Positions 15,964 to 59,442 of a stretch of 64,000 nt of DNA are shown here, in pieces. Each line of letters starts with the position of its first letter. The first letter of the stretch is position 1. This DNA is from Victivallales bacterium (lineage in GTDB: Bacteria > Verrucomicrobiota > Lentisphaeria > Oligosphaerales > Oligosphaeraceae), in the NCBI GenBank assembly GCA_017554445.1, contig JAFZIJ010000174.1, positions 1-64,000 on the forward strand. The letters run 5' to 3'. The notes beneath the pieces are model-generated. The model saw only the letters and a list, made by a program, of their open reading frames with translations. It was not told the DNA's origin and made no database searches. The position numbers were made by a program, and so were the translations under genes.

Positions 15964-16875
15964 CTACCGAGATGGCGGCAAATGGCTGGCTTCCTCATAG
16001 GTCAGAGCACCGTGCTTGCGCATTGCCTCTATCAGCCTGTCCTTCTCCGTCGGGTCCATTGCCGTGTTTGCCATCACGACATCAAGAGGATACAGATTCG
16101 GTGGTGAACAGGGAAGATCCCCTCTCCGATTGTTCCACTCGTTGGGAGAAAAACCGTTCTCCAATAGCAAAATCATGAAGTCTACAAGCAGCCTGTCATT
16201 GGGCGACGACTGCTCCTCATGCATCAAGTACTTCAGAATCCAATAGGAAAAACAATCTTTCAGTTCCTGACATTGGAGTTCTTCCGGACAACCATCCCTG
16301 AACACCCTTTGCAACATTCTGTAGGTGAATTCGTCCAGATTTTCCTCAACTTGAAGTAACGTGAACGGGATCTTTGCGCCATAGTTGAGAAGCAACTCAA
16401 AAGCTTCTTCATGATGATTCTCGTATGCCTGGTACAGCAATGGCTCTCTTTCATGGAACCAAGGAGAGACGACATTCGGCGAAACGCCCTCCTTCAATTT
16501 CTTTTCCAGTCCTTTCAGGTCGTTGTCTCTCAGATACTTGTCCAACGGGGGATCTTTGCAATACTGCACACAATGTACGAGATCAACTGGCAGGCAGATG
16601 GTGTCCACCGCAAGTTCCAGAGGAAGATCCACGACAAATAGCGGTAATTGTACTATCGGCAAAAGCACCTTTTCGCGAAAACCCTCCCCCGTTACAGCCG
16701 CATTGACAGGAAAGCCAACAAGCCCCATTGTGCCAGAATAAATGCAATATGGTGGTGGAAGCCCCCCTACGGTTATTGTCTCGGCAATGCGCACGCATCC
16801 CCCCCCACAGAGAGACAAAAGCAACAGCGACATGAATGAAATGAACAGGATAATCGCTTTTTTTATATTTTGCAT
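15964..16875 (-). CDS. Exported lipoprotein with YceK/YidQ-like N-terminus and ankyrin-like repeats
   Basis: 303 residues; ATG 16,875 preceded by CGGAG. A hydrophobic signal ends in LLLLSLCGGGC, so lipid attachment at the Cys near 27 is likely. Residues ~75-100 hold the PLELAVDTICLPVDL pattern of YceK/YidQ-type small lipoproteins. After that come ankyrin-like helices (KGLEKKLKEGVSPNVVS, AFELLLNYGAKI, ILLLENGFSPNEW). It is preceded by a sigma-54-type promoter and paired 22-bp repeats shared with the gene at 58,298-59,269. The function may be protein binding at the cell envelope; the partner is unknown. Confidence 0.75.
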   Translation of the reverse strand: MQNIKKAIILFISFMSLLLLSLCGGGCVRIAETITVGGLPPPYCIYSGTMGLVGFPVNAAVTGEGFREKVLLPIVQLPLFVVDLPLELAVDTICLPVDLVHCVQYCKDPPLDKYLRDNDLKGLEKKLKEGVSPNVVSPWFHEREPLLYQAYENHHEEAFELLLNYGAKIPFTLLQVEENLDEFTYRMLQRVFRDGCPEELQCQELKDCFSYWILKYLMHEEQSSPNDRLLVDFMILLLENGFSPNEWNNRRGDLPCSPPNLYPLDVVMANTAMDPTEKDRLIEAMRKHGALTYEEASHLPPSR

Positions 16876-16954
16876 ATTGAACTCCGTTTGTTGTCATATC
16901 ATCATTTGACCGACTTCCACTTTCACCGAAATCAGCAACGTCATATTTCAATAC

Positions 16955-16970
16955 GCAAGAATCATGCCAA
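16955..16970 (-). promoter_or_regulatory. Sigma-54 (RpoN)-type promoter of the ankyrin lipoprotein gene
   Basis: Minus strand TTGGCATG-ATTC-TTGC fits the -24/-12 consensus TTGGCAYG-N4-TTGC. The conserved box TGCCTGAAAA sits four bases upstream (minus-strand 16,984-16,975). The predicted start is near 16,943, leaving about 67 bases before the ATG. Spacing, flanking box and upstream repeats are matched at 59,341-59,356. Confidence 0.75.
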
Positions 16971-17014
16971 CTTCTTTTCAGGCACAAAAAGTGGCGCAAA
17001 AGACCTTTGCTATA

Positions 17015-17055
17015 CATTTTTTGTACATCTGCCTGACATTTTTTGTACATTTGCC
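17015..17055 (-). promoter_or_regulatory. Paired 22-bp repeats, candidate enhancer site for a sigma-54 activator
   Basis: Two tandem units beginning CATTTTTTGTACAT on the plus strand (17,015-17,036 and 17,037-17,055), 60 bases upstream of the -12 element. The same pair occurs at 59,402-59,442 at almost the same distance from an equivalent promoter. A 22-base period is about two helical turns, as expected for adjacent activator dimers. Confidence 0.65.
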
Positions 17056-17062
17056 ATCAAAA

Positions 17063-17112
17063 AACAAAAAGGAAGCCCTTCTTCACATCCAATCATGCGA
17101 GAGGGCTTCCTT
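17063..17112 (-). terminator. Rho-independent terminator after the yhcG pseudogene
   Basis: Minus strand: stem AAGGAAGCCCT (17,112-17,102) / AGGGCTTCCTT (17,079-17,069), then a T-rich run (TTTTTGTTTTTTG). It lies 60 bases past the stop of the YhcG-type frame and insulates the sigma-54 promoter downstream. Confidence 0.75.
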
Positions 17113-58280: not shown

Positions 58281-58314
58281 ACCCGTCACGGAAAACACTA
58301 TTTCCGTGACGGGT
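58281..58314. terminator. Perfect 14-bp-stem hairpin between convergent genes
   Basis: ACCCGTCACGGAAA (58,281-58,294) / TTTCCGTGACGGGT (58,301-58,314) with a 6-base loop. It overlaps the last codons and stop of the minus-strand gene ending at 58,298 and lies 34 bases past the plus-strand gene. The A/T-rich part sits inside the stem next to the loop, not as a 3' tail. It may act in both directions. Confidence 0.6.
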
Positions 58315-59269
58315 CAATACCGATGGACTTCAACCATTTCATGGTCATTTTCGACTGCTGCGCAGGAGTGTAGCGTTTGCGCTTCAAACCGTTCTCCTCC
58401 CATTTGATTATATCCGCAGGGGCGAGAAGCTGATGTTTGGAATATTCCTGCAACCCCATGTTCTTGTAAAATTGGACATGCAACAGGGAATGGGACCATT
58501 TGTCCAAAAACGACGCCTGAAAAATGCAATGTCCCAGCCAAGTTCCACTGGGAGCCCTGTTCAAAATATAATAGGCGATTTTTGGATCGCTCATTGTATG
58601 GTCACGCTTCCTGAAGCCAAAAACGTATAAGTGATGCAACACACCGTCGATGAACCTAAAATGCACTGTCAACGGCTTGTCGGGGAATTCCATCCGGCCG
58701 ATGAAAGCCCGTTTTTGCCGTTCGTATGCATTCGTTTCCATCAATCGGATTTCGGCCACATGCCGTCCAGTCGGCAACCGTAGCCACAGGCATTCCCCTG
58801 TGCAGATCTTCAAATAGGACTCACGGGAAAGACGCGTGTATTCCTCATCCTTGAAATCCAGACGGTCAAGCCAATGCAGAAGAGTCTGGTAGTAAACACG
58901 CAATTCACCGGACGGATCCGTATGTTCTATCTTCATGACCAGATCATCCTTCACAAGCAATCTGAAGACATACCCAGAAGGTTTGTCGAATGTGACTTCC
59001 ACAATCCGATCATACTCCCTCTCCTCCTCCCGCGGCTTGCATTCCCTCGTCTCGAACACACATGCCACAGGAGGTCCTTCAGGCGGTTCCGTAAATGTTC
59101 CTCCCGAAGATTTTGGGGTATCTGATGGTTCCTCTCTGCTCTGAATATCCATCAGAACAGGCTCCAAAATAATCGGCATGGTGCAGTCAAACGGTTTCGA
59201 CTCCTCACTCGCCGCCCACAGCGACAGAAATGTGACACACAACATGATTTGGATTTTGCTGATATTCAT
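58298..59269 (-). CDS. Exported hypothetical protein under a sigma-54-type promoter (323 aa)
   Basis: ATG 59,269 (MNISKIQIMLCVTFLSLWAA) has GGAG at good spacing; the longer ORF upstream is out because the promoter lies there. A signal peptide of about 19 residues is followed by a Pro/Glu-rich stretch and a soluble region with FRLLVKDDLVMKIEHTDPSG, TGRHVAEIRLME and YILNRAPSGTWLGHCIFQASF. The C-terminus is basic and ends KWLKSIGIDPSRK. No family recognised. Its promoter architecture is nearly identical to that of the ankyrin lipoprotein gene at 15,964-16,875, though the proteins are unrelated. Confidence 0.7.
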   Translation of the reverse strand: MNISKIQIMLCVTFLSLWAASEESKPFDCTMPIILEPVLMDIQSREEPSDTPKSSGGTFTEPPEGPPVACVFETRECKPREEEREYDRIVEVTFDKPSGYVFRLLVKDDLVMKIEHTDPSGELRVYYQTLLHWLDRLDFKDEEYTRLSRESYLKICTGECLWLRLPTGRHVAEIRLMETNAYERQKRAFIGRMEFPDKPLTVHFRFIDGVLHHLYVFGFRKRDHTMSDPKIAYYILNRAPSGTWLGHCIFQASFLDKWSHSLLHVQFYKNMGLQEYSKHQLLAPADIIKWEENGLKRKRYTPAQQSKMTMKWLKSIGIDPSRK

Positions 59270-59340
59270 GGTAATCTCCAAGGTTGCCTTGTTTTGTCTT
59301 TTCAATCGGTTCCCGCTTTTTGCAGGACGATTATTCAAAA

Positions 59341-59356
59341 GCAAAATCCATGCCAA
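59341..59356 (-). promoter_or_regulatory. Sigma-54 (RpoN)-type promoter of the 58,298-59,269 gene
   Basis: Minus strand TTGGCATG-GATT-TTGC, matching the -24/-12 consensus. TGCCTGAAAA lies four bases upstream (minus-strand 59,370-59,361), as at the other locus. The predicted start is near 59,329, leaving about 60 bases to the ATG. Confidence 0.75.
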
Positions 59357-59401
59357 GCCATTTTCAGGCATGCCTGATTGACTTCAACAGCCTTCACCTG
59401 A

Positions 59402-59442
59402 CATTTTTTGTACACCTGCCTGACATTTTTTGTACATTTGCC
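59402..59442 (-). promoter_or_regulatory. Paired 22-bp repeats, second enhancer-like site
   Basis: Units CATTTTTTGTACACCTGCCTGA... (first 22 bases, 59,402-59,423) and CATTTTTTGTACATTTGCC (59,424-59,442). Their start is 61 bases upstream of the -12 element at 59,341, against 60 bases at the other locus. The pattern TGTACAAAAAATG on the minus strand is the conserved core. Confidence 0.65.

Follow-up and report, generated by a model that had tools for sequence, protein, structure and literature searches.

Tandem palindromes upstream of predicted sigma-54 promoters of exported-protein genes in a Victivallales genome, and their candidate activator

Two modules in the window

The stretch of DNA analysed (64 kb, hereafter the window) belongs to a draft assembly of 4.92 Mb in 234 contigs that is approximately 90% complete. 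On its minus strand lie two genes for exported proteins, each preceded by a predicted sigma-54 promoter, a short third element and two palindromes in tandem (Table 1). An earlier note on this DNA had claimed three elements at both loci, namely TTGGCATG-N4-TTGC, TGCCTGAAAA and two copies of TGTACAAAAAATG placed 22 bp apart, and all were found again on the minus strand, with the TGTACAAAAAATG pairs at 17015-17049 and 59402-59436. The 13-mer TGTACAAAAAATG was present in four exact copies in the window, which constitute these two pairs. Exact pairs at the 22-bp spacing were found at these two loci alone, against a random expectation of about 3e-11, and comparison of the observed and expected counts ruled out a chance repeat as their origin. 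The perfect -24/-12 pattern was likewise present in the window at both module promoters and nowhere else. Given the terminator-like hairpin upstream of module 1, simple read-through into this module from the gene upstream is improbable.

Target gene 1 had been described as an ankyrin lipoprotein gene. The product is probably a lipoprotein, but a Pfam search at E<=0.1 returned no ankyrin repeats. A weak YceK/DUF1375 lipoprotein-like stretch (residues 77-99) scored just under the cut-off, and the single-sequence structure model of the protein was poor and of low confidence.

Table 1. Coordinates of the two modules and of the genes downstream of them in the window.
Feature	Position	Strand	Basis
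Distal activator palindrome, module 1, ATGTACAAAAAATGTCAGG, centre 17041	17032..17050	minus	sequence and motif model from 36 sites
Proximal activator palindrome, module 1, ATGTACAAAAAATGTATAG, centre 17019, 49 bp upstream of the -24 box	17010..17028	minus	sequence and motif model
Third element, module 1, TGCCTGAAAA	16975..16984	minus	sequence; relaxed G-x-CT conservation
Sigma-54 -24/-12 promoter, module 1, TTGGCATGATTCTTGC; predicted start near 16943	16955..16970	minus	pattern match; rpoN present
Hairpin upstream of module 1, terminator-like, GGAAGCCCT...AGGGCTTCC with a T run after it	17071..17110	minus	read directly in the sequence
Target gene 1, 303 aa, exported, probably a lipoprotein	15964..16875	minus	translation, profile searches
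Distal activator palindrome, module 2, ATGTACAAAAAATGTCAGG, centre 59428	59419..59437	minus	sequence and motif model
Proximal activator palindrome, module 2, GTGTACAAAAAATGTCAGG, centre 59406, 50 bp upstream of the -24 box	59397..59415	minus	sequence and motif model
Third element, module 2, TGCCTGAAAA	59361..59370	minus	sequence; relaxed G-x-CT conservation
Sigma-54 -24/-12 promoter, module 2, TTGGCATGGATTTTGC; predicted start near 59329	59341..59356	minus	pattern match
Target gene 2, 323 aa, exported, lineage-specific family (FDCTMPII...)	58298..59269	minus	translation, profile searches

Copies in the genome and architecture of the module

The two modules had been presented as a matched pair; they are instead two of seven copies in the genome. 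The core 14-mer TGTACAAAAAATGT occurred exactly six times, at four places, and a search for CAAAAAATG-N13-CAAAAAATG with at most one mismatch returned seven pairs, beyond which only noise was seen. The same seven were recovered with a looser pattern (two ACA-N5-TGT cores at 22 bp with any spacer), the remaining matches being unrelated. In addition to the two window modules, pairs were located on C173, C186, C216, C232 and C157. Every one of the seven had a -24/-12 match (at most one mismatch) within approximately 130 bp. At this stringency the entire genome held 73 such matches, compared to 23 for a reversed control, so that the presence of one beside each pair is an association far beyond chance. 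The consensus TGGCAY-N5-TTGC was near-invariant in all 21 aligned regulon promoters, which had been chosen by GG-N10-GC with the other positions of the box left free.

The earlier note had read the repeats as 22-bp units with a TGTACAAAAAATG/TGTACA core. The 22-bp spacing was upheld, but the natural unit is an imperfect 19-bp palindrome with the core ACA-N5-TGT and an A/T spacer, as defined by a motif model of 36 sites in 18 modules of three genomes from which the gltB sites and those at the locus of the enhancer-binding protein (bEBP) described below were excluded. Two interchangeable kinds of arm were observed, CCTGACA and GTGTACA/GTATACA. The pure forms of the palindrome are GTGTACAAAAAATGTACAC and CCTGACAAAAAATGTCAGG, and the window sites are mostly hybrids (ATGTACA-AAAAA-TGTCAGG or -TGTATAG). 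Paired palindromes lie 22 bp apart from centre to centre, about two helical turns, which places them in tandem on the same face of the helix as is looked for in a bEBP enhancer.

An offset of 60 bases between repeats and promoter had been proposed; in the window the -24 box lies 49-50 bp from the centre of the closest palindrome upstream and approximately 80 bp from the outermost edge of the pair. Measured from the proximal centre, the distance was 49-50 bp at most promoters in the genus, 60-61 bp in the VIT and C186 groups, and 71 bp at two others. Steps of one helical turn such as these had a chance probability of about 0.003-0.006, counting just three distance classes; given the simplicity of the null model and the possible shared descent of many of the 50-bp sites, the statistic is supportive rather than decisive. 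The VIT promoters of more distant relatives were often at 82-88 bp, off the one-turn series.

The third element was shared in the form TGCCTGAAAA by both window modules as claimed, but elsewhere it was found only in a relaxed form, G-x-CT, ending 10 nt before the -24 box. Strict TGCCTGAAAA was confined to the two window promoters, their orthologues in G002 and G003:C2. Of 21 regulon members, 20 had the dinucleotide CT at -11/-10 relative to the -24 box, whereas among 12 sigma-54-like promoters of this genome outside the regulon a single one had it. The pair at C157, upstream of gltB, lacks the CT element and is out of phase at 86 bp, which makes its membership of the regulon doubtful.

The proposal of a dispersed envelope regulon was supported by the additional copies, as the downstream genes are mostly exported or lipoprotein-like. 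The C173 target is a VIT/VWA protein operon; the C186 and C216 targets are related to one another and are weakly carboxypeptidase-regulatory-like; and target 2, the 59-kb gene of C159, has a paralogue at C232 beneath the same type of module. Additional exported or lipoprotein-like genes were found under such modules in the congeneric genomes G002 and G003. Most targets had no match in Pfam or NCBIfam profile searches. They are lineage-specific and differ between sister species, a turnover that would fit rapidly evolving surface proteins.

Paralogy of targets raises the explanation that the modules are repeat copies left by duplication or recombination and have no regulatory role. Indeed, both the target 2 and C232 genes and the C186 and C216 genes are paralogous, and the two window modules can be aligned around the pair and promoter. 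However, between families the conservation is mainly in the palindromes, the CT element and the -24/-12 box, the C216 and C186 paralogues differ in spacing by one helical turn, and a genome without the bEBP described below is also without modules even where a target family persists. We consider this explanation extremely improbable.

Sigma-54-like promoters of other groups were also noted in the genome. Those at C58:11523 (L040), C60:72039 (L042), C85:1458 (L047) and C80:11425 (L046) precede the chaperone genes hsp20, clpB and dnaK and one other gene and have TGTGNCA-N3-TGNCACA palindromes 58-100 bp upstream, which looks like a sigma-54-dependent heat-shock regulon. Others precede the nitrogen genes glnB, gdhA, glnA and gltB (C51:8764, L020; C140:101897, L024; C157:27470 and 27806, L026), the first three with TTTACA-N5-TGTAAA-like palindromes that are near to, yet distinct from, the envelope motif. 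Several divergent -24/-12 promoters with TGGTAAAATATTCACCA-like palindromes lie near the C164 bEBP gene (L061, L029), before related genes of about 371 aa, and are perhaps a further small sigma-54 regulon.

The candidate activator

Sigma-54 promoters need both the sigma factor and a bEBP. The genome encodes rpoN (Sigma54_DBD E=5e-53) and, by PF00158 search, five true bEBPs, in agreement with the expectation of the earlier note. Weak PF00158 matches at C41, C60, C43 and C140 had low scores and were treated as other AAA proteins.

The best candidate for the activator is a 502-aa bEBP encoded on contig C173 (L064:6565-8073). Its gene is divergent from an operon for a VIT/VWA surface protein and a rhombosortase, and one of the seven pairs sits between them. 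Here the sigma-54 promoter has two perfect palindromes and drives the VIT/VWA gene followed by the rhombosortase gene. The VIT/VWA protein (Pfam VIT E=2.7e-28) ends in a Gly-rich, hydrophobic and basic tail, and the rhombosortase scored 84.9 bits with TIGR03902, marginally above the cut-off of 84. Upstream of the bEBP gene is a sigma-70-like promoter, TTGACA-N17-TATAGT, with its -35 box within the second palindrome. This overlap suggests that the bEBP most likely represses its own gene, and the layout, typical of self-repressing activators, makes autorepression probable.

The same overlap could be read differently, with an unrelated DNA-binding protein, for instance a repressor, on the pairs and the -24/-12 boxes activated through other sites. 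The perfect or near-perfect palindromes, as in many repressor sites, and the covered -35 box would suit such a protein. The tandem 22-bp spacing, the one-turn steps and the -24/-12 box downstream at every copy suit enhancers better, and we regard this reading as very unlikely.

The AAA+ domain of the C173 bEBP (PF00158, 151.9 bits) has the Walker A motif GESGTGKE and a GAFTGA-like loop, GSYTGA. For a putative Fis-type C-terminal HTH, the match to HTH_8 was weak (E=0.027) and under the curated cut-off. Pfam and NCBIfam searches gave no family for the N-terminal 200 residues; an AlphaFold model from 11 sequences predicted an all-helical domain (mean pLDDT 79), for which no fold match was found in the PDB (best E 0.96). 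In the PEP-CTERM PrsR/PrsK circuit, too, a sigma-54 activator is associated with envelope proteins that undergo sorting. PrsR (TIGR02915) belongs to the response regulators with a receiver domain, whereas the C173 bEBP has no receiver domain, and its identity with PrsR was rejected on a TIGR02915 score of 170.5 bits (cut-off 502.6) over the AAA+ and HTH part only.

The distribution of pairs in five genomes of the genus was compared with that of the bEBPs. Pairs numbered seven in G000, seven in G002 and nine in G003, and none were found in G001 or G004; a single pair-like match in G001 was without any flanking motif. The C173-type bEBP was present in G000, G002 and G003 and absent from G001 and G004. 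Among the bEBPs of these genomes it alone occurs exactly where pairs do, a co-occurrence of three versus two genomes, all drafts of 85-90% completeness in which a bEBP or further sites may have been missed.

These comparisons bear on whether the pairs are read by another bEBP, such as the GAF-domain, NifA-like protein encoded on C157 or a different regulator of nitrogen genes. The glnB, gdhA and glnA genes of the same genome have similar TTTACA-N5-TGTAAA palindromes and gltB has a CCTGACA pair, and since nitrogen-group promoters share ACA-N5-TGT with TTT/AAA flanks, cross-recognition is possible. However, the C136 and C85 types (by sequence clustering) and apparently the C157 type (by matching length and score, two members having been read) are present in all five genomes, including the two without pairs, and are disfavoured as activators; the C164 type has a distribution that differs from that of the pairs; and the C173 locus alone carries a pair between the divergent genes, an arrangement kept across orders. 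Another bEBP as the reader of the pairs is therefore unlikely. In the NifA upstream activator sequence, TGT-N10-ACA, a sigma-54 activator also recognises short half sites of the TGT/ACA type. The sites described here differ from it, with ACA-N5-TGT within a site and TGT-N11-ACA between sites, and the NifA-like protein of the genome fails the co-occurrence test.

Taken together, the modules with their copies, the presence of rpoN and of the bEBP, the sites between the divergent genes, and the observed co-occurrence and conservation, all read from sequence, make it highly probable that the two window loci are enhancer-promoter modules and belong to a small sigma-54 regulon activated by the C173 bEBP. 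The small gene set that includes both window promoters is probably run by this one, previously undescribed activator. We infer that the protein binds the pairs, activates with the help of ATP, represses its own gene and answers one inducing signal common to the targets. It would bind two adjacent palindromes 22 bp apart, probably as dimers, and make contact, 49-71 bp downstream, with sigma-54 RNA polymerase on the -24/-12 box, where ATP would power the opening of the promoter. At C173 the pair would activate the divergent VIT/rhombosortase operon, and bEBP bound to the palindrome over its own -35 box would repress its own gene.

Conservation of the circuit and relation to known systems

Relatives of target 2 persist in G004, where their promoters have neither palindromes nor a -24/-12 box and two of three have, by eye, a sigma-70-like TTGACA-N17-AATACT. 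Beyond the genus, homologues of the C173 bEBP (39-92% identical) were found in Victivallales, other Lentisphaeria, Opitutaceae, Planctomycetota and one Deltaproteobacteria bin. In many of these loci, including Opitutaceae and one planctomycete, a VIT gene is divergent from the bEBP gene, and the VIT proteins have mostly Gly-rich tails where the end could be read. We scanned 31 such loci with a motif model in which the spacer carried no weight and whose training set excluded bEBP-locus sites. In most of them the tandem pair upstream of the bEBP homologue beat 60 of 60 dinucleotide shuffles, in other orders, Opitutaceae and Planctomycetota as well, and the failures were chiefly the most distant or differently arranged loci. 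In some relatives approximately 50% identical to the activator (L159, L160 and L162, of G028, G019 and G025) the divergent gene is acyl-CoA-synthetase-like rather than a VIT gene, which marks a second subfamily directed at a different target.

Three 99%-complete genomes (G051, G054 and G059) each had one pair locus by a specific pattern search, at the bEBP gene; in G056 an exact-pattern search gave no pair, and a weaker pair is present at its bEBP locus. The regulon outside the genus thus seems limited to the activator/VIT locus. The single pair locus beside the bEBP gene suggests that the ancestral circuit was probably the bEBP with VIT/rhombosortase, and the spread onto fast-evolving envelope proteins looks recent.

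Control by sigma-54 and a bEBP is itself well known. With NtrC/NifA/PspF-type systems the present one shares the GG-N10-GC -24/-12 box, tandem upstream palindromes, an AAA+ activator with a GAFTGA-type loop (here GSYTGA) and a divergent, probably autorepressed activator gene. It differs from them in the palindrome (ACA-N5-TGT with CCTGACA or GTGTACA arms), in the extra G-x-CT element and in the N-terminal domain of the activator, an unrecognised helical domain rather than a receiver, GAF, PAS or CARF domain.

GlyGly-CTERM has been reported on VIT/VWA proteins, and Opitutus terrae is among the species reported to have rhombosortase/GlyGly-CTERM members (Haft and Varghese 2011, PMC3237569). A VIT/VWA protein with a Gly-rich, hydrophobic, basic tail beside a rhombosortase is common to those systems and the C173 locus. 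A word search of that paper found no mention of sigma factors, and its rhombosortase system is linked here to a divergent sigma-54 activator and regulon. In open-licence papers we found nothing joining sigma-54 with VIT domains or rhombosortase, no sigma-54 regulon of Lentisphaerota or Verrucomicrobiota covering this case, and nothing relevant in Planctomycetes. Neither the activator family nor its link to surface-protein sorting was found described in these papers.

A broader and rather doubtful reading, offered tentatively, is that the activator represents an undescribed multi-phylum bEBP family whose orphan helical N-terminal domain would sense the state of VIT/VWA-rhombosortase sorting, and that the circuit expanded in this rumen genus, recruiting fast-evolving exported proteins by gain of pairs.

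With the operator defined, the targets listed and a candidate family of activators named, whose sensory domain is unrecognised, the circuit can be tested directly. The sites described here also connect sigma-54 control with a rhombosortase system dedicated to surface proteins, and present a case of a regulon apparently growing from one locus to several within one genus.
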